Origin: Halocafeteria seosinensis
Taxonomy: Eukaryota; Sar; Bigyra; Bicosoecida
NCBI GenBank assembly: GCA_001687465.1
Contig: LVLI01000100.1
Coordinates: 109,021-173,020, forward strand
Direction of reading: 5' to 3'
Length of the DNA: 64,000 nt
Shown piece by piece: positions 50,772-63,004 of this stretch (positions are counted from its first letter, which is position 1; the number at the start of each line of letters is the position of its first letter). The notes below the pieces were generated by a model, which made no database searches, was not told the DNA's origin, and saw only the letters and a program-made list of their open reading frames with translations. A program made the translations under genes and the position numbers.

Positions 50772-51681
50772 GGATGGGATTGTTGATACACAACATTCCG
50801 GTACTGCAGCACCGAAGGAAGAAGCCTTGCTATTGCTTACTTGTTTTGTACTACCTGTTACATATTGTCCCTATCGCAGCGTCCCGGAAACAAGTGGTGT
50901 AGAAATGAATGCACACGGCCACCGGCAGCCGTTAATTTGCCAGGAATGCATTGTCCCCGTGGGTGCCCTTTGGAAAAACAACAAAAGGGGACACAAAGCG
51001 CGCGCCAGAGGAAACACCAGCGCAGGGATGGAACGACTTTCGAGAACGAAGTCCATCAATTCTCGACCACAGGCAGCGACGAAGATGGAACATCTCCGGT
51101 GGAATCCGGATTCGAGAACAGCCGAAGAGCAAGCTACACGAACTGACTTATACGTGCAAGAGGAAACTAACAACAATATCCGCCCAATCCTATTAAGCAT
51201 TGAACTGCTAGCGAGTCAAGCGGCTGTGCCAAGCCGGGTGAGTAAGGACGAGACGGAATGGAACGTTGGGAAGACACGCTTGGGGGAGGGGGAACGAGAG
51301 CCAGGAGAGAAGAGGGACGAAGAACTGAGACGGACAGTACGTCTCGGGTGGAATCCGGATTCGAGAACAGCCGGAGAGCAAGTTACACGAATTGACTTAT
51401 ACGTGCAAGAGGAAACTAACAACAATATCCGCCCAATCCTATTAAGCATTGAACTGCTAGCGAGTCAAGCGGCTGTGCCAAGACGGGTGAGTAAGGACGA
51501 GACGGAATGGAACGTTGGGAAGACACGCATGGGGGAGGGGGAACGAGAGCCAGGAGAGAAGAGGGACGAAGAACTGAGACGGACAGTACGTCTCGGGTGG
51601 AATCCGGATTCGAGAACAGCCGGAGAGCAAGTTACACGAATTGACTTATACGTGATGGGATGTGACGGAAACGGATACTGA
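50772..51681 (+). repeat. dispersed repeat copy 1 with open frame and internal tandem array
   Basis: Bases 50772-51178 match 58464-58874 nearly base for base (407 versus 411 nt, one 4-bp indel, few substitutions). In copy 1 a frame stays open from 50767 to 51681 (304 codons), rich in Glu, Arg and Asn, with two CxxC-like Cys and no known domain. The 5' border (GGATGGGATTGTTGATACAC) and the 3' end (AACTAACAACAATA) carry TGTTG/CAACA words as in long terminal repeats, but flanking duplications that would prove an LTR are not seen. The frame may be fortuitous, kept open by the multiple-of-three tandem unit. Possibly a solo LTR or a piece of a larger retroelement. Confidence 0.7.
51101..51654 (+). 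repeat. 249-bp tandem repeat, 2.2 units
   Basis: Unit boundaries at 51101, 51350 and 51599 (GGAATCCGGATTCGAGAACA at each). Units are almost identical. 249 is 83 codons, so the frame is preserved: each unit reads WNPDSRTAGEQVTRIDLYVQ and ends DEELRRTVRLG. The third unit stops after 56 bp. Recent duplication is likely. Confidence 0.9.
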
Positions 51682-52677: not shown

Positions 52678-53706
52678 CTAGGACTCACAGCCAGGAAAAG
52701 ATGAGTTAGGAAGTTTCGACACTTCGGCAAATGATGCAAGGTCCCTCCATAAGTTATGACTGTCGCAATTGTACATCCAAACATTCATATAATAGAAAGG
52801 GTGGTCAGACGCCAGACACGTCGCGGCGAGGTTATGAAGCCCGTACAAGTAAGCAGCCGCAACCGGACCGACAGATTTTGCCTGTAGTTCCGCCGTTGGA
52901 ACAAACTTACCGTTTTTTCTCCTCTGGGGGACTGCCGCGGACAACACGGAAAGCAAAACTATGGGGTGGGCAGTAATTCTTCTATATGCCCAGTCTCTAG
53001 CATTCCTTAAAGTGAGAAGAACACGGGCGTTCGGGAATACATTCAGAAGAAAAGGTAAGTAATTATAATATGGTGCGTCGGAGACCACATCCACTGCCTC
53101 GAGAGCAAGGAAATCCATTTTCGCAGCGTTTTTAAACCTTCCAGATTTTAACGCCTTGAAGAGCTTCTGTATTCTTTCCCGACTTTGCTCACTGCAGTTC
53201 GGACAGACAAGTTTTTGGAAGTGCACGGTACTTTTTCCAAGTTTATTTAAACCGCGGATAATGGACCTGGTACCAGTGGTGCCTTCTCCAGCAATAATGA
53301 GGAGCTTATGTTGGGACGGAGTTTGAATGTCTGTCGTTAAGACAGACCTTTGAATGTCCTTTAATTGGGAACAAAACTCCATGAGGATGGACTCATTTCG
53401 AGAAGCGGGTAAAGCACACGTCTGCTTTCCATTGCCCAACTGTTTTTCTGTCACATTTGTGTGTGTGTTTTCCCATGTGGTAGTATTTACGACGGCAGCG
53501 GTCAAGCCAATTTCCGATTGATGCAACGTCGAGAACACACATGATATACCAATTGTAACACACAGTGTTGCGAGTGATACTACTATTGCTTGTGGCACAT
53601 TAACGTTGCTCATACCCATCCACATCGTATGTCTCTCTCCGGCGGTTGCCATCGGTCTCCACCCGCTAGGGCTATCCTGAGCCGGTGGTGCTGCCTGCTT
53701 CCCCAT
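52678..53706 (-). CDS. type II membrane sulfotransferase-like protein, intronless
   Basis: One uninterrupted exon of 342 aa. A cytosolic N-terminus (about 36 residues) is followed by a signal anchor (PQAIVVSLATLCVTIGISC), a stem with N-glycosylation sequons (NTTTW, NVTE), and a catalytic-like domain. KLLIIAGEGTTGTRSIIRGL fits the 5'-phosphosulfate loop of PAPS-dependent sulfotransferases (or the P-loop of related families), and SDAPYYNYLPFLLNVFPNARVLLTLRNARDWAYRR fits the 3'-phosphate-binding RxxxxxxxS-like region, here with Arg-Asn-Ala-Arg-Asp. The layout suggests a Golgi enzyme acting on glycans or proteins. The acceptor substrate cannot be told. In a window where most genes have 2-8 introns it is one of three long intronless genes, all between 52 and 63 kb. 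Confidence 0.7.
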   Translation of the reverse strand: MGKQAAPPAQDSPSGWRPMATAGERHTMWMGMSNVNVPQAIVVSLATLCVTIGISCVFSTLHQSEIGLTAAVVNTTTWENTHTNVTEKQLGNGKQTCALPASRNESILMEFCSQLKDIQRSVLTTDIQTPSQHKLLIIAGEGTTGTRSIIRGLNKLGKSTVHFQKLVCPNCSEQSRERIQKLFKALKSGRFKNAAKMDFLALEAVDVVSDAPYYNYLPFLLNVFPNARVLLTLRNARDWAYRRITAHPIVLLSVLSAAVPQRRKNGKFVPTAELQAKSVGPVAAAYLYGLHNLAATCLASDHPFYYMNVWMYNCDSHNLWRDLASFAEVSKLPNSSFPGCES

Positions 53707-54577: not shown

Positions 54578-55341
54578 ATGATGCGGCACATCTTTGAGGG
54601 ACTCTGCGCCCCTCCAGATAGCCATGATGCTTCGACCATAACTAACGTTTCAGAAATTAGGGGAAACGGGATTCTATGGGGGTTCGAAAAAATTGTGGCC
54701 GAAATGGTTTTAATTCCCTCCTGCAGTTGATTTTCTTTCCCGCTCAGCTGTCAGTATTTTACAGCCAGTTTGAACGCACTTGGTTACGACTAGCTTCCTA
54801 CCTCGAGCTTGGTCAAATAGATAGTGCTGATTCTCGCGGCGCCTTTCATAGAATGCTCAACGCTCGAAAATTTCGCCTCATCAATGCGTCCAAGAGAGAA
54901 TCCACCAAAACAGAAGAGCTGGTGCGTAAAACAAGCTCCGAGTGGTGTGGTGAAAGAATTGAAGATTTTACCAAAGGATTTTTGCTTGGAATACGCTTTA
55001 TCCTTTCGGAATTGTTTTCTCAGGTTCGCGAATCTCTCCCTGCGCCATGGAGCGAAATAGTGTCTGCAAAACTCTCCCGGAAGCGAAGACGATCAAATAG
55101 TGATTCGATGGAGCGAACGGGCCAAAAGCGAAATCGATCCGATAGCGAAGTTAGTCAAAGCTCAACTATGTGCAGCTCGGATAGGCTAAACGTGGAGAAA
55201 GGCCACAGTTGTATGCAACAGACGAAATTTCATGGTTTGATGCTCGTTGCAAATAGCGATATTGTTAACTCTTTGGAAAGGAAGAGCATTTACAGGGCAA
55301 TTTCGGAGTTGGTACCCCGAGACAACGCACTCCTTGAATAG
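54578..55341 (+). CDS. hypothetical helical protein, exon structure uncertain
   Basis: Model: exon 54578-54706 (starts MMRHIFEGLCAPPDSHDAS and runs to FEKIVAEM) joined to 54748-55341 (LSVFYSQFERTWLRLASYLELGQ...). The intron would be 41 nt with a weak donor GTTTTA, or 53 nt with donor GTGGCC; both keep frame. Total about 240 aa. The middle is helical (EDFTKGFLLGIRFILSELF), then a basic Ser-rich nuclear-signal-like stretch (KLSRKRRRSNSD, GQKRNRSD). The 3' end is ambiguous: the frame ends at 55341, but a further protein-like frame (about 55344-55568, ending YIRELK) could be reached by splicing from GTATGC at about 55211. No family recognised. Confidence 0.5.
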
Positions 55342-55903: not shown

Positions 55904-58261
55904 CTATGTGCCTAACTCCCAAAGACCTCCTCTTTTGCGTTTCGAAAGACAGATGTGCCGGCGCATGTCCTCTTGCCGAATCATGGGACCCCCTGAGTGT
56001 TGGGTATACACGGAAGGAGGCGTATCCCAATCCATTACAGCCGCAACTAAAATACAGGCTTCCGTGCGTAATCTCAAGCGCTTTCGATAACCCCGTGCTT
56101 GTTCAATAGCCTCCCTCATTTTAGTTTCAAGGCGGTTCTTTCCGCGCATCTTGTTTTCAATAATGACATAGAATTCCCCCAGTTTCACGATAATATCAAT
56201 CCTCTTTCTTCCCATTATCTGCTTTTCCACCGAAACCTTTATCTCTGGATGGCTCAGTTGCTCCGCAATCATATGGTAGACCGCGGCCTGAAATGGTATT
56301 TCCCGTAAGGGCTTGCTCAAGAAATCCGCGTTGTTTCGACTTATTCTTTCCGCCCCAGTATTAACGCAGTCAATCACGCGTGTTAGTAATAATTCGGGAT
56401 TAGCTGAAAGCCTGTTCACCTCCCTATTGGACAGGTTTCCTGGTGGGGGAAAGTAACCGCTTAGAAGATCAATTTGAAATTCCAGGTTCCGAGCATCGTC
56501 CGAGGGAGTAAGAACAAGTTTCTCCTTATTCGAGTAACTGACTTGAAGCAAGCCCAAATAAAATAGCAGTATCAGAGGAGCTTGAGTACCTGATTTGTAA
56601 AAGTGCTCAATTCGTGACTGGGTAAACGTCGCTTGATCAACGGTCCCGCCCAGCATAGCATCGCGGAGTTGCTTACGGTCGACCCTCGCAGCAAGCATGG
56701 TTCCATATATATTTTTCGACTGCGAAAACCACATTAGGGGTGGTATTTCCTTCCCCGAGTCTTCCACATACTCGAGCAGCGTGAGTGCATCTAGCGGACT
56801 ATACACCGGTACGTGCCCACTGTCTCCTATGTCCAACGCCATACAAAACCCGTTCACATTATCCCTCAACCAGTCGAAGAATTCCTTCCGTTGAAGAGCT
56901 CGTTCAGTGCGTCTAGTGCGTGTAGCTAGGGGTGTACATATGTTGATGTCAGGTTTGGACGCCCAGTCTAGCACGCGATCTAATGACATGGACGTACTTG
57001 CATGGTCTTCTAAAGCAGTAGATAGCTCCCTTTCCGAGATTCCGAAGAATTCATGATACTTCTTGCGAAGCGTCAACACTTCAGATAACGGAAGATCCGA
57101 CAAGCCAGTCTGACCAAGGGGAACAAGTGATATGATGCACGTGCCCCAAACAACGCTCTTCTCGAGGAGCGCCTTGATGCAGCGGCACCACACACCTAAA
57201 CACCGCGTAACCTCATAATACCCTTCCCTCTCAGGCAATAACCGTCTACGGAGCGGCGGGAAGATACATAGATACCATGCCCAATACTCAAGCTTCTTCC
57301 CATATTCAAGCTCTCGAAAAGGAAAGTCATACTCGTCCATTAAAATTAGTATCTCCGAATTTACTTCATCACGGACATTGAGGAGTTCGTGTCTTTGTGA
57401 ATATTCTTCTTGTGCTAATTCGCCGATTGCCGTTTCGTACAAATTCTTGAGAGTGGTAGGAGCAAAGTGGAGATACGAACCGAAATCAACAGATGGTCCG
57501 GCTTGTACGCCGTGTGCTTGAAATTGCTCCTTTAATTGGTTGAGTAGAGTCTCTGGTTTTGAACACTCCAGCATGGTGACGCTAATGACCGGTCTTAGAG
57601 GTTGTTCTAGGAACCACCTTCCCTCTTTTAGTGCAGCAACTGAGTCGTAAAATAATTTCGTTCTGTCCTTATTTACGTTCCACAGTGCACCCAAGATATA
57701 TTCCACGAACTGTAACCACGTCGTTTTCCCACAGCGTCGTGGGTACGTGGCGAAACACACCCCAAGATGCGCTTGAGAAACGTCCAGAACCGTTTTGTAT
57801 GACTCTGTTTTGTCAATAAAGAGCCCTTGAGGTATCATGTCCAACAATGTACTTGCGGGGCTATTTTGCCGCTTGACCTTTTTAAATTCGTAACTCTTTT
57901 CCACCTTCCGCGCTGCTTGACGTAGCTTAATGTTTTCCTTGAGTTGCTTCTTAAGGGCTTCTACGGCAGGACGCTCAAAATAAGGAAGCCGACGCAGGTC
58001 AGCGTTCTTGCGAAATTCTTCGGCAAAGCGTTTGAAAAACCAGTAGATAAGGAAAACTACTAGGAAAACGACTCCAGCGTAGGCAAGTAATAGTCTTCCA
58101 GTTTCGTCCAGAGCAGTGTAGAGAGCAGCAACCAACCCACCAAAAACGACAGTCATCGTTAAAGAGCTGTATGTTGCCTGTGGAGCTTGCTGTGCATTAT
58201 GCATCAGGCGCTCGTCTCTGCGACGATCTGAGGGTGAATACCGCCGACGCATCGTCTCCAT
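55904..58261 (-). CDS. membrane-anchored AAA-ATPase-like / PD-(D/E)XK nuclease protein, intronless
   Basis: One exon, 785 aa. Two transmembrane helices (about 31-51 and 56-76) with a basic N-terminus. Then the AAA-ATPase-like module: the entry helix, FIDKTESYKTVLDVSQ, Walker A YPRRCGKTTWL (173-183; the family usually has PRRxGKS), VISVTM, and Walker B LILMDEYDFPF (306-315) with the hallmark DEYD. The C-terminus (685-730) has a PD-(D/E)XK nuclease core: RIDIIVKL with Asp689, YVIIENKM with Glu702 and Lys704, and the QARGY element (721-725). This AAA-ATPase-like plus PDDEXK pair is best known in bacteria and in scattered multicopy families of protists and fungi, often lineage-expanded and suspected mobile. 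Active-site residues look intact. The membrane anchor is an unusual addition. It is flanked by the two ~410-bp repeat copies and next to a transposon. Confidence 0.85.
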   Translation of the reverse strand: METMRRRYSPSDRRRDERLMHNAQQAPQATYSSLTMTVVFGGLVAALYTALDETGRLLLAYAGVVFLVVFLIYWFFKRFAEEFRKNADLRRLPYFERPAVEALKKQLKENIKLRQAARKVEKSYEFKKVKRQNSPASTLLDMIPQGLFIDKTESYKTVLDVSQAHLGVCFATYPRRCGKTTWLQFVEYILGALWNVNKDRTKLFYDSVAALKEGRWFLEQPLRPVISVTMLECSKPETLLNQLKEQFQAHGVQAGPSVDFGSYLHFAPTTLKNLYETAIGELAQEEYSQRHELLNVRDEVNSEILILMDEYDFPFRELEYGKKLEYWAWYLCIFPPLRRRLLPEREGYYEVTRCLGVWCRCIKALLEKSVVWGTCIISLVPLGQTGLSDLPLSEVLTLRKKYHEFFGISERELSTALEDHASTSMSLDRVLDWASKPDINICTPLATRTRRTERALQRKEFFDWLRDNVNGFCMALDIGDSGHVPVYSPLDALTLLEYVEDSGKEIPPLMWFSQSKNIYGTMLAARVDRKQLRDAMLGGTVDQATFTQSRIEHFYKSGTQAPLILLFYLGLLQVSYSNKEKLVLTPSDDARNLEFQIDLLSGYFPPPGNLSNREVNRLSANPELLLTRVIDCVNTGAERISRNNADFLSKPLREIPFQAAVYHMIAEQLSHPEIKVSVEKQIMGRKRIDIIVKLGEFYVIIENKMRGKNRLETKMREAIEQARGYRKRLRLRTEACILVAAVMDWDTPPSVYTQHSGGPMIRQEDMRRHICLSKRKRGGLWELGT

Positions 58262-58463: not shown

Positions 58464-58874
58464 GGACGGGATTGTTGATACACAACATTCCGGTACTGCA
58501 GCACCGAAGGAAGAAGCCTTGCTATTGCTTACTTGTTTGTTTTGTACCACCTGTTACATATTGTCCCTATCGCAGCGTCCCGGATACAAGTGGTGTAGAA
58601 ATGAATGCACACGGCCACCGGCAGCCGTTAATTTGCCAGGAATGCATTGCCCCCGTGGGTGCCCTTTGGAAAAACAACAAAAGGGGACACAAAGCGCGCG
58701 CGAGAGGAAACACCAGCGCAGGGATGGAACGACTTTCGAGAACGAAGTCCATCAATTCTCGACCAGAGGCAGTGACGAAGATGGATCATCTCCGGTGGAA
58801 TCCGGATGCGAGAACAGCCGAAGAGCAAGCTACACGAATTGACTTATACGTGCAAGAGGAAACTAACAACAATA
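58464..58874 (+). repeat. dispersed repeat copy 2, ending at the TIR element
   Basis: 411 bp colinear with 50772-51178. It has the same start (GGACGGGATTGTTGATACAC) and the same last shared bases (AACTAACAACAATA). The final TA of this copy is the target site of the TIR element at 58875. Sequence continuing copy 1 (TCCGCCCAATCC) is not found on the far side of the element, so copy 2 either ended here or was deleted on insertion. Confidence 0.85.
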
Positions 58875-60254
58875 CCCTAGGATGCAGAAATAAGGGCCGA
58901 TTCTCCGGTAACTTGAAGTTGCCAACATTCGGATGTCAATTTAAAGGGCCGATTCTTCAAAACGGTCGTATTTGAATGATTCGAAGGTGTTTAACGGAGT
59001 GTAAGCAATCAAAATATAAAGAAAAATACATGTATATTGTGCTACATTTGCCTTCGCGGACTAAACCTTCATGGAAGTACAGAAAATGGATGGAACAGAT
59101 CTGAGGCTGAGCTGCGCGCCAAAACTTGGGCGTATGAAGCATCAAACTCATCGCCAAGGTTCTCCTGGAGCGATGGCGCATACTGCCACGAGTTTTCAGT
59201 TTCTGAATAACCTTTTCATTTGTTAATAATGCGCTGTTCTTCGTCGTCTCCCGCAAGAAGCTCTCCACGACAAAAATGACTGGTGATACACTCAGTGCCC
59301 ACACATGGTTTTGAATCCGCCTGCTCCTCTTAGTCAATTACCTCTTGCAGCAGCTGCACAAGAAAGGATTTTGGAGCTCTAGTGCCTGCAAACCCCTTGT
59401 TTGAACAATAGCTCTAGCTCAGAACGGGTCATGCCGGGAAGAGAATCGGTTTGAACAGTTTGCGGCAAATTGCTTCCCGCACTTGGAACCAACATGGATT
59501 TTACACAGGGAGTGGGAATGTAATACGTACCCACAGCACGGANCATCGGAGCATTGCGTAAGTCAGCAGATCCAAGCATTGACCCGAATTCTTTGAGGTC
59601 CAGAGGTTCAAGAAGCAGCTGAAGCAGTTCGTGCTGGGACAACAGTGCCGGAAGGATTACAACGAGCCCAAGTAAGTTCGCACCTTTGACGAATCTCCTC
59701 GTTCTGCTTGCGTCATGGAGCCCTACCCTTATGCATGCCCTTATTACAGGTGCGTCCGGGCTTGTGAATCGCTGCTGCGAAGAATTTTGAACTCGTTGCG
59801 TCTTGTGCAAGGAGATAAGAAGCGGCAATCTAAAACCCGTGGTAATTATGGTTGCTGAGAATGTATGTAATTGGTTTTCGTACGTCGGATCTGCCAACAA
59901 CCCCCGAAAGGCGTGTGAGATGCGTGACTAGGAACCTAAGTCGAACTTCACAGTGGGTGGTTTTTTGCAATCGGTTGGCGAACGTTCTGGACATTCGCAA
60001 AACTTCCATCACCCCAAGGGGGAGGCAAAGGGGACACACAAATTGACCCCGGGCCACTTTTCGAGCCCTCTCGTGACCAAGAAATCGGACCATATCTTTG
60101 TAACCAGAAATGCTTTGAAAGCAAAAACTTGACAGAGTACACAAAATATGATTGCCGTTCTCATGGTATCGCTCTCTACCCAGTGGGAGACCTGCATAAG
60201 AGCGTCAATAATAAGGGCACATTTAGAATCGGCCCCTATTTCTGCATCCTAGGG
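58875..60254. mobile_element. 1380-bp DNA transposon-like element with 30-bp TIRs and TA target site
   Basis: The left end 58875-58904 (CCCTAGGATGCAGAAATA...) and the right end 60225-60254 are inverted copies with one mismatch in 30. Both ends are flanked by TA (58873-58874 and 60255-60256), as in elements of the Tc1/mariner and other TA-target groups. A second AGGGCCGATTCT sits inside the left end at about 58945. The interior has decayed minus-strand coding (see separate feature) and one ambiguous base at 59543. No recognisable transposase (no DDE/D spacing found), so the element is probably non-autonomous or degenerate. Confidence 0.85.
59069..59900 (-). pseudogene. decayed coding remnant inside the TIR element
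   Basis: The minus strand reads as protein in pieces: an open run from 59900 to 59379 including LLSQHELLQLLLEPLDLKEF and SLPGMTRSELELLFKQ, then, one base out of frame at a GGGG run near 59395, GFAGTRAPKSFLVQLLQE, then after an in-frame stop ADSKPCVGTECITSHFCRGE, another stop, and ENSWQYAPSLQENLGDEFDA to a stop at 59069. The product is not recognised. Stops and a frameshift suggest a pseudogene; the ambiguous base and homopolymer leave room for sequencing error. Confidence 0.5.
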
Positions 60255-60256
60255 TA

Positions 60257-60622
60257 TAATTACCGTGTGCAATGCATTGAGCAATGCGCAGGCGCATCCA
60301 CCGGAGCATTCTTGACGAATTTTGTCGATGTTGAACCCCACGGTTTCCCTCGCTGAACTTCGTTTCCCACGGCCCTCAAGACCTTTTTTGTTGCTACCAG
60401 TTGACAGACGATGAGGAGGCCGTGGATGCATACAATTACATAACCTTGCCGGACTGTATTGATAGGGTGTGCACACTAAAAGAAGAGGAAAACATTGAAA
60501 ACTGATTTTTCCTTGGTGAAGCCGTCACGAAAAAAGAAGAGATACCACTCAATCTACGGTCTAGACTGTACTTTACAGGCTGCAAGTTACAGCCACTCGC
60601 ACTGGACAACGGCGAAAGTAAA
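60257..60622. other. leader of the GLUG-like gene, no other feature
   Basis: About 370 bp between the TIR element and the ATG at 60623. No gene seen. Probable promoter and 5' UTR. Confidence 0.35.
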
Positions 60623-63004
60623 ATGGCGTTGGACGTCGCGTTGGGTGAATTCAGCTTTTGTCTTATATCACTCTTGATGATATCCTTCAACAGCTCGACA
60701 GCTGCGAGGACACTTCCTGGCGTCATCGTTGTGCTTTATCTCCCTTCATTGGTCTACGGGCAAAAGGAAGGTCCTCATTCCAAAACGCCGGAAGCACTAA
60801 ATCCTGATCTCCAAGTGGACATCAATCCTTGGCAAGCTCATAGAATTCCGGAGCGTATATCAGTGCTCTCAAACCATCTCCAATCGTTATGCAGCAATGT
60901 GAACGTGAGAACTCGGTTTCGGCCCCAGCCCATTAATGGTGGAGAATTGTCGAAACAAAAATTTGAAAGCGACAACGACGATGGTAAGGACTTTTATATC
61001 TGCAGCTTGCGGCTTGTTACTCCTTCAAAGTTTATAAATACGTGTACGTCAGGATTGGCTCAGTGTCTTCAGAGGGAGAAAGTTGGAGACCTGCGGTCGG
61101 CGGGGGAACTGGGAACCAATCGCAGCAGTGAGCAACAACAGACCCTCAGTGCATTTTCAAGTCTGATATTTTTAGTAAAGAATCATATGAAGAATTCAAA
61201 AATTGAATTGGCTAGAGGCTGCCTAGGAAGTTTGAAGATCCAAGTAACCAACTCTGGAGGGCAAAAAATAATTTTCCCTTTAGAGTGTGATGGCTCCTTC
61301 TACTCCAAAGGGCAATCATGCTTGGTTATCTTCAGTCTCATTGTTGCTTTGAACTTTTGTTGGGATTTTGCAAAAACTTCGGCAGCTTCGGCAGAGGTAT
61401 CCTGGCAACTAGTGCTTCGAAACGCTGTCAGGAAAATGGTTTCTTCTACCCTGTTGCGCTGTGTATCTTCGTTCCGGATGCTCCTGCGGCAAAATCCCAT
61501 CAACAAGAAAAGGAAGCAACAGGAGTACTTCTTGGAGTTGACGAAGCGCCTAACTGGTGCTAAGCGACCTACTAACCCTGAATCGGCGGCTTTGTTATTC
61601 ACTCTATCACTTTGCTGTCTTCCAGTAAAGATAAAGGGAAAGGACCTACGACCCGCGATTCTACATGGCGATGAACCATGCTTTGACTATATACCGCATC
61701 GAAACCTATTTGAAATGACTTGTGGTGCATTATCGTGGAGTACTGCAGGCTACGGGAAACAAGACTATATCTCGTTAGATGCGAATGAGATATTTGATGG
61801 TGGTCGACAGAATTCGAACCTGATAGATTTGAATGGAATAAACACTTTTGAAGGAATATTCAAGATAATGGAAAATGTCACCTCGTTTGATCAAGCTCCC
61901 TTGATTCGGAATCTTGACGTTAGGAATGGAGAAACTGCAAAACATGGTGGATTTATTGTTCAACAACAACAGAGATTCTTCATGCTAGACTCATGTAGCT
62001 CATCAGGAGATATTGTTTCTATAAACGGTGGAGGCATATGTGGTAGTCATAGTGGGCAAATCAAGATTTCCAATTCGTACTCGACAGGGAGAATTTTGGG
62101 TATGAACGCAGGCGGTATCGCAGGACTTCAGGTAGGCGGCGATCACGGGGTTGTCAATATCACGGATTGTTATTCCACTGGGAATATTGTAGGGGACCAC
62201 GCAGGTGGGATTTGTGGAAATGCTGCTGGTTTTTCGAGTGGTCAAGTGTATATAGTTCGTTCCTATTCTACAGGAGATATTATTCTGGGTAAAGCGGGTG
62301 GTGGCATAGTTGGGCATGTTGCTGGGCAAACCACGGGACTAGTGTATATCAAAGAATGCTATAGTATGGAGAAAATATCTGCACAACATAGTGGAGGGAT
62401 TAGTGGACCTGGTACAGCGCACACTGAGGGAGAAGTACATATTGTAGATTGCTATAGCCGAGGAGATATTAATGGCAACGGGGCAGGAGGAATTACGGGA
62501 TACCAAACAGGAGGATGGGGCGAATACTCTACGGGCGATGTCTACATCGCCAATACATATGCATCGGGTGCAATCACTGGAAAAGATTCCGGAGGGATTA
62601 TAGGGCATGTAGAAAGCGGTGTAAGTGGTACTATTCAAGTGAAATACTCGGTATACCGTAACGACACTGACAGGGTAGCGACGCTTGTAGGACTGGACGA
62701 GAGCAACAACCAAGTTTCCGAGATAGGAAATTCAAATAACTTGACAGACATACGTGGAACACTGTATCACCATAGAGGGTTACAACGATGGTCTGATGAC
62801 GTGTGGGCTATAGATGCAGATGGGGAGTCTCTGCCAATCCTGCACTTTCAACTGTATACGCGTACTCGTTTGCAGATGCCAACAGTCTCTCGAACCGGGA
62901 CAAAACGAGTTCCATTAATACAATGTAGCAAGGCAGATATGAGGCACAGGCATGCCTTCGGAAATCTTTCGGTTAGGCGAAAAGCTAGGACCTCAGTCAT
63001 TTGA
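60623..63004 (+). CDS. GLUG-like beta-helix repeat protein, intronless, secreted or surface
   Basis: A single 793-codon exon. The N-terminus has two hydrophobic segments (about 9-22 and 33-45) ending VYGQ, a likely signal peptide or anchor. The first ~450 residues are unrecognised, with further hydrophobic patches (SCLVIFSLIVALNFCWDF; ALLFTLSLCC) and a basic segment. Residues about 455-690 form six or seven repeats of about 36 residues of the type CYSTGNIVGDHAGGICG, SYSTGDIILGKAGGGIVG, CYSRGDINGNGAGGITGY, ending VYIANTYASGAITGKDSGGI. This Y-S-x-G-x-I...GGI-x-G pattern is that of GLUG-type right-handed beta-helix proteins, frequent in bacterial surface proteins and some large-virus or protist proteins. 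A binding or adhesion role is inferred. No enzymatic motif. The intronless state is notable here. Confidence 0.75.
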   Translation: MALDVALGEFSFCLISLLMISFNSSTAARTLPGVIVVLYLPSLVYGQKEGPHSKTPEALNPDLQVDINPWQAHRIPERISVLSNHLQSLCSNVNVRTRFRPQPINGGELSKQKFESDNDDGKDFYICSLRLVTPSKFINTCTSGLAQCLQREKVGDLRSAGELGTNRSSEQQQTLSAFSSLIFLVKNHMKNSKIELARGCLGSLKIQVTNSGGQKIIFPLECDGSFYSKGQSCLVIFSLIVALNFCWDFAKTSAASAEVSWQLVLRNAVRKMVSSTLLRCVSSFRMLLRQNPINKKRKQQEYFLELTKRLTGAKRPTNPESAALLFTLSLCCLPVKIKGKDLRPAILHGDEPCFDYIPHRNLFEMTCGALSWSTAGYGKQDYISLDANEIFDGGRQNSNLIDLNGINTFEGIFKIMENVTSFDQAPLIRNLDVRNGETAKHGGFIVQQQQRFFMLDSCSSSGDIVSINGGGICGSHSGQIKISNSYSTGRILGMNAGGIAGLQVGGDHGVVNITDCYSTGNIVGDHAGGICGNAAGFSSGQVYIVRSYSTGDIILGKAGGGIVGHVAGQTTGLVYIKECYSMEKISAQHSGGISGPGTAHTEGEVHIVDCYSRGDINGNGAGGITGYQTGGWGEYSTGDVYIANTYASGAITGKDSGGIIGHVESGVSGTIQVKYSVYRNDTDRVATLVGLDESNNQVSEIGNSNNLTDIRGTLYHHRGLQRWSDDVWAIDADGESLPILHFQLYTRTRLQMPTVSRTGTKRVPLIQCSKADMRHRHAFGNLSVRRKARTSVI

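Follow-up and report, generated by a model that had tools for sequence, protein, structure and literature searches.

DUF1703 proteins, described in PMC1913061 from various bacteria, combine an ATPase with a nuclease and are defined by arginines in the P-loop (RPRRFGKS type), a DEYD motif and the nuclease motifs E, D, ExK and Q. For Cardinium cCpun, with its 25 divergent paralogues, the published account states that the role of its DUF1703 proteins 'remains to be determined' (PMC6387759), and the ATPase domain PF09820 is listed among the domains of phage-defence proteins (RADAR RdrA, PARIS1 and Old-tin; PMC10952713). A comparable module order is described for the Crinkler/CR proteins of eukaryotes, in which an NTPase, HTH and REase follow variable N-termini (PMC5289972). 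Our search of the literature on DUF1703, PF09820, PDDEXK_9 and PF08011 returned no title on a eukaryotic membrane-anchored DUF1703 protein. Partial likenesses also exist to STAND/NLR-type ATPases (archaeal 2fna/2qen, CED-4 and plant resistosomes), to the nuclease-STAND antiphage Avs proteins and to the CinB/CidB nucleases of Wolbachia, which are not known to have an ATPase, carry two nuclease-fold domains and belong to a different biology.

A transcribed DUF1703 gene in a eukaryote

Halocafeteria seosinensis is a halophilic bacterivorous flagellate. Its genome has been sequenced (PMC6972860) and is reported to contain 74 virophage capsid genes (PMC10120064). We analysed a 64,000-nucleotide stretch of this genome (the window; positions 109021-173020 of contig 64, C64) in the context of the whole assembly (30.6 Mb, 605 contigs). 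A sequence-only reading had proposed that the window encodes a membrane-anchored ATPase-nuclease bracketed by repeats, and the ORF scan bore out the proposed 785-aa frame (Table 1). The sole close database match of its product was a transcript-derived EukProt protein, labelled complete, of equal length and 99% identical. A second protein of the same transcript set was identical to a paralogue of the focal gene, C160 (710/710 residues), so the set very probably comes from the same species as the assembly. The focal gene is thus eukaryotic, transcribed and intronless.

The transcript-derived protein and the genome differ at five residues, all within 69 positions (453, 471, 484, 497 and 521; P ~3e-4 for this clustering in a simulation), one of them being the G of the NGF motif. 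The pattern points to allelic variation, gene conversion or a second copy of nearly the same sequence.

Table 1. Features of the focal locus, in positions of the window
Feature	Position	Strand	Evidence or remark
Intronless gene, 785 aa: predicted membrane hairpin, STAND/AAA-like NTPase, winged-helix region, PD-(D/E)XK nuclease (DUF1703 family)	55904..58261	-	ORF, transcript-derived protein, Pfam, profile-profile, AlphaFold2
Helical hairpin (residues 33-77), predicted to be transmembrane, between two basic flanks	58031..58165	-	Kyte-Doolittle scan, charges, codon statistics, helical in AlphaFold2 model
NTPase and winged-helix module, about residues 132-636	56354..57868	-	
Walker A PRRCGKTT, residues 174-181	57719..57742	-	GK[ST] in 13/13 aligned members with the region; R-R replaces glycines as in bacterial DUF1703 (described in PMC1913061)
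Walker B LMDEYD, residues 307-312	57326..57343	-	D309-E310 in 13/14 aligned members with the region
C-terminal PD-(D/E)XK nuclease domain, about residues 645-757 (E654, D689, E702, K704, Q721)	55991..56329	-	Motif conservation, PF14281 just under cut-off, Foldseek to CinB
Dispersed repeat copy at the 5' end of the gene, outside the gene family	58464..58877	+	62 genome matches on 38 contigs (lower bound)
Second copy of the ~410-bp repeat, with 249-nt tandem units	50772..51679	+	
MITE-like element of 1386 bp, 33-bp terminal inverted repeats, TA at its ends, independent of the gene	58872..60257	.	

All published DUF1703 motifs were present in the focal protein: YPRRCGKTT, LMDEYD and nuclease motifs I (E), II (D), III (ExK) and IV (Q), with E654, D689 and E702-N-K704 followed by QARGY at residues 721-725. 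Of the 22 family loci that we found in this genome, 15 were aligned to count conservation; E-D-ExK was retained in 11 of the 13 aligned members reaching the nuclease. The elements previously described as intact (Walker A, the DEYD Walker B, the D...ENK core and QARGY) could all be located in the focal protein. An HMM check, also proposed earlier, was positive for one domain model only. PF09820 scored 24.0 bits on the focal ORF alone, against a cut-off of 26.1; the genome search, which took in neighbouring matches, raised this to 27.1 bits, and 10 of the 15 members matched the model at E ≤ 0.1. PF08011 (PDDEXK_9) had no match in the focal protein at E ≤ 1 and weak matches in three of the 15 (best E 0.01), and the focal nuclease scored 20.2 bits with PF14281 (PDDEXK_4), just under its cut-off of 22.3.

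Comparison with bacterial proteins settled the assignment. A tblastn search of plasmids with two paralogues (C7 and C9) returned 12 records, ten from Persicobacter (best E 8e-6), one from Fusobacterium (E 7e-3) and one from Cardinium (E 0.4); six of the 12 formed our comparison set, and the three proteins scanned each contained PF09820 and PF08011 well over cut-off. Profile-profile alignment (hhalign) of the six bacterial proteins with the 15 family loci gave E 9.3e-26 over 475 columns (residues 137-742) and, with only the four closest family members, E 3.8e-18, at 19-20% identity over the aligned length. The likeness to bacterial and archaeal DUF1703 proteins is one of full-length homology, including the R-R Walker A, DEYD and nuclease motifs I-IV in the same order. 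By these sequence comparisons the focal protein is a eukaryotic full-length DUF1703 member, though the PF08011 model missed it. Since the nuclease region lies inside the aligned range, the absent PF08011 match reads as divergence of the nuclease rather than its absence, and the earlier description as an ATPase and PD-(D/E)XK protein with intact catalytic residues is upheld. The focal protein differs from its bacterial counterparts in its eukaryotic host, in its inserts and in an N-terminus of ~130 residues with a predicted membrane hairpin.

In the AlphaFold2 model (pLDDT 78.5), a restriction-enzyme-like nuclease comes after a P-loop NTPase that has a winged-helix region. In a fold ranking of the modelled NTPase, archaeal STAND-type ATPases came closest, followed by NLR/CED-4 and ORC/Cdc6 proteins. 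This resemblance is one of fold only, with ORC/Cdc6 nearly as close; the focal protein differs from STAND/NLR-type and Avs proteins in its C-terminal nuclease and N-terminal hairpin, and a Pfam scan recognised no family of sensor repeats in it. The C-terminal domain shares the PD-(D/E)XK fold of CinB (Foldseek to 7esz_C, E 6.4e-4 with a first model and 2.4e-3 with a second). A sequence search of the PDB, with the single protein or a profile, gave nothing at E ≤ 1.

Searches for further relatives returned little. In a set of 5.8 billion proteins, searched with limited sensitivity, no relative outside this genome was detected; the searches returned the transcripts of the focal gene and C160, or that of C160 alone. 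None of 106 pattern matches in a bacterial genome collection was a relative by tblastn, a result limited by the method, given that plasmid relatives exist. The nuclease region matched short stretches of two PADLOC models (CARF-PDDEXK, E 8.6e-5; PDC-S26, E 9.3e-5), and NCBIfam returned the antiphage protein EruA at E 0.014. We also considered a viral origin, which found no support: no relative was detected in IMG/VR (two peptide patterns and tblastn) or among INPHARED phages, and no viral structure matched the model at E ≤ 0.001, the best being a Clandestinovirus AAA-ATPase with E 2.6e-3.

The gene family and its N-terminal parts

Genome searches with PF09820 and three members revealed 22 DUF1703 loci on 22 contigs at E ≤ 1e-3, which answers an earlier proposal to count paralogues: the gene is multi-copy. 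Half of the loci have long open frames of 638-803 aa (C64, C160, C345, C117, C14, C84, C7, C9, C366, C438 and C270) and the other 11 are fragments or interrupted (C62, C491, C577, C63, C313, C27, C353, C103, C235, C73 and C5). An expansion to many divergent paralogues is likewise described for Cardinium cCpun, with 25 copies (PMC6387759). The members are mostly divergent, with 16-41% identity to the focal protein, and two pairs were near-identical (C9/C366, 98%; C491/C577, 99.8%) and may be alleles or assembly duplicates. Among the seven members in an alignment used to query the protein set, two (C64 and C160) were returned as EukProt transcripts.

The pair C9/C366 differs by 16 synonymous and 23 nonsynonymous changes across 690 codons (dN/dS 0.41, from this single pair and without a significance test). 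Their likeness breaks off within an intron-like sequence ~130 bp ahead of the open frame. Beyond that point, 73 bp can still be matched at 73%, and the remaining upstream DNA has no match. The upstream ORF of C9 is instead shared with C62 (82.7% over 173 bp), and that of C366 with C270 (32% over 75 aa, E 4e-6). Two ATPase-nuclease frames that are 98% identical, each preceded by largely dissimilar DNA, look like cassette swapping. By eye, the N-terminus of C160 is a basic stretch and that of C117 is coiled-coil-like. Judged from sequence, the N-terminal surroundings appear to change around a constant ATPase-nuclease cassette, the upstream ORFs being putative N-terminal parts.

In the focal protein, two hydrophobic stretches precede the ATPase: residues ~33-51, where the Kyte-Doolittle mean reaches 1.73, and residues ~57-77, where it reaches 2.55. 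Their outer flanks are basic, with 7 and 18 K+R, and the loop between them is short, features that predict a hairpin with both ends cytosolic. Codon statistics over the first 140 codons fit the gene's own frame and no other. Six bacterial DUF1703 proteins that we examined begin directly with the ATPase, and the focal N-terminus adds ~130 residues. The two membrane helices proposed earlier thus stand as a predicted hairpin foreign to those six proteins, and placement at a membrane is likewise a prediction.

We looked for a counterpart in the upstream DNA of 13 paralogues and found an upstream ORF with two hydrophobic windows in four (C345, C9, C366 and C270). Only the closest relative, C345 (41% identity), reached a hairpin-likeness score equal to the 95% point of shuffles; C9, C366 and C270 scored lower, and C27 passed its own 95% point without having a hydrophobic pair. 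In a putative gene model of C345, removal of two short GT-AG introns, of 80 and 37 nt, would bring the upstream stretch into frame with the ATPase; the resulting pair has a clear second helix (up to 2.25) and a weaker first one. In a second test of hairpin likeness, 47 of 2,000 shuffles reached the C345 score. Together, these comparisons are no more than suggestive of a hairpin shared with C345.

Flanking repeats and neighbouring elements

The sequence-only reading had hinted that the gene moves or spreads with the repeats around it. The repeats near 50.8 and 58.5 kb do exist and are 96% identical over 300 bp, but a tie to the gene family was not supported. The ~410-bp repeat has at least 62 matches on at least 38 contigs, a lower bound from scoring 40 of 53 candidates; five of the matches are almost complete, and two of these five lie in the window. 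Three of the 22 family contigs held a listed match, at a distance from the family locus of ~0.2 kb on C64, ~113 kb on C14 and ~14 kb on C5, and among the matches listed the repeat does not border the paralogues. We therefore rejected repeat-borne mobility of the gene for this dispersed repeat, judging from those 40 scored candidates out of 53. Chance, in DNA rich in repeats and ~6 kb from the contig end, is the best reading of the bracketing.

One repeat copy is abutted by the element with terminal inverted repeats, which had also been offered as a sign of mobility. This proved to be a separate multi-copy element. Diverged copies occur on C61 (98%), C3 (95%) and C232 (94% over 1-1136), and three of the four copies inspected, the window's included, show both ends with TA at each. 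No Pfam domain was found in the three ORFs scanned, and as a carrier of the gene the element was rejected on both grounds.

Several other features of the neighbourhood were recorded. Between the two repeat copies lies a sulfotransferase-like gene (52678-53706; PF17784, 45.6 bits, cut-off 22.8) in which inspection by eye shows a hydrophobic stretch close to the N-terminus. An ORF at 54676-55341 has a sub-threshold match to the C-terminus of WASH complex subunit 7 (19.9 bits, cut-off 25). A 793-aa frame at 60623-63004 contains repeated GGI/S-x-G motifs, which we take to be reminiscent of bacterial GLUG-type beta-helix repeats, and has no Pfam match at E 0.1. Finally, a 121-bp stretch at ~63517-63637 matches the surroundings of C366 (93%; L022 3812-3932) and is probably another dispersed repeat.

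Proposed mechanism and competing explanations

We propose that the focal gene encodes a membrane-tethered, ATP-gated nuclease facing the cytosol, within a conflict or defence family of bacterial derivation; taken as a whole, we give this explanation even chances. The P-loop NTPase module (core, helical region and winged helix), STAND/NLR-like or ORC-like, would act as an ATP-controlled switch that positions or licenses the metal-dependent PD-(D/E)XK nuclease at the C-terminus. Binding of ATP, perhaps with oligomerisation, would be followed by cutting of nucleic acid at the metal-dependent site; both steps are predicted from homology and structure. The N-terminal hairpin would anchor the protein at a membrane, leaving both catalytic modules in the cytosol. 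Diversification of the family in this genome would have come about as dispersed copies of the ATPase-nuclease cassette were joined to varying N-terminal parts, thereby altering where or with whom the same nuclease acts. The likeliest role would be cleavage, on triggering, of foreign or selfish nucleic acid such as that of viruses or virophages or ingested or mobile DNA. Expansion, broken copies, changing N-termini and plasmid-borne bacterial relatives would fit conflict or defence better than housekeeping, and on these family features the earlier suggestion of a genome-conflict system stays plausible.

The cassette might instead be selfish, spreading itself in a transposase-like or homing-like manner with a nuclease that serves its own transposition. 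Dispersal over 22 loci, of which 11 are fragments or interrupted, is compatible with such spread, as is a recent 98% identical duplicate whose break lies just before the open frame, and prokaryotic NTPase-REase pairs are described as linked with transposable elements (PMC5289972). However, comparison of 17 family neighbourhoods besides the window, some with little flank, revealed no shared terminal repeats, and the repeat beside the focal gene was not found next to other members among the matches listed. An 88-bp repeat near C270, C353 and C103 (L024 175-262) is itself dispersed genome-wide (520 candidates), and the members are mostly divergent (16-41% identity to the focal protein). We regard a self-spreading cassette as unlikely.

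The same divergence, together with many copies of which half are incomplete, is unlike housekeeping genes and makes a DNA- or RNA-processing enzyme, or a non-catalytic regulator outside conflict, improbable. Transcription, as given by the EukProt record, would agree with such a role, as would the dN/dS of 0.41 in the one recent pair, which carries no significance test, but no relative outside this genome appeared in the 5.8-billion-protein set, at the limited sensitivity of that search.

We consider it similarly improbable that the family belongs to the Crinkler/CR effectors, which carry a header before the NTPase, HTH and REase and would be aimed at other cells. The module order, as CR proteins are described, the multiple copies and the variable N-terminal parts recall such effectors, but in place of a secretion header the focal N-terminus has a hydrophobic hairpin flanked by basic stretches. 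No Crinkler header was detected in the family: Pfam, which presumably includes a Crinkler N-terminal model, gave no Crinkler or ubiquitin-like match at E ≤ 0.1 in the 15 members and three upstream ORFs scanned. DUF1703 is the family indicated by both the Walker A motif (PRRxGKT) and the full-length match.

Bacterial contamination or a very recent bacterial transfer, which the bacterial origin of the outside relatives found might suggest, is close to refuted by the transcript in a eukaryote set, the neighbouring WD40-repeat and sulfotransferase-like genes, the intron-like structure predicted in one relative and the mere 19-20% identity to bacterial members over the aligned length.

Returning to the membrane-tethered nuclease, a broader reading is that H. 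seosinensis holds an NLR-like set of intracellular nucleases, derived from bacteria and fitted with exchangeable N-terminal addresses, which would form a restriction-like immunity of a eukaryote against viruses, virophages and ingested DNA. In the focal protein the address would be the membrane hairpin; other copies would have basic or coiled-coil-like parts, or separate ones resembling upstream exons. We offer this reading as speculative and rather doubtful. A eukaryote with 11 long-frame DUF1703 copies, at least two of them transcribed and one with a predicted anchor, provides a separate setting in which to study ATPase-nuclease function, and it may add to the cases in which eukaryotic cells have put bacterial conflict modules to new use.
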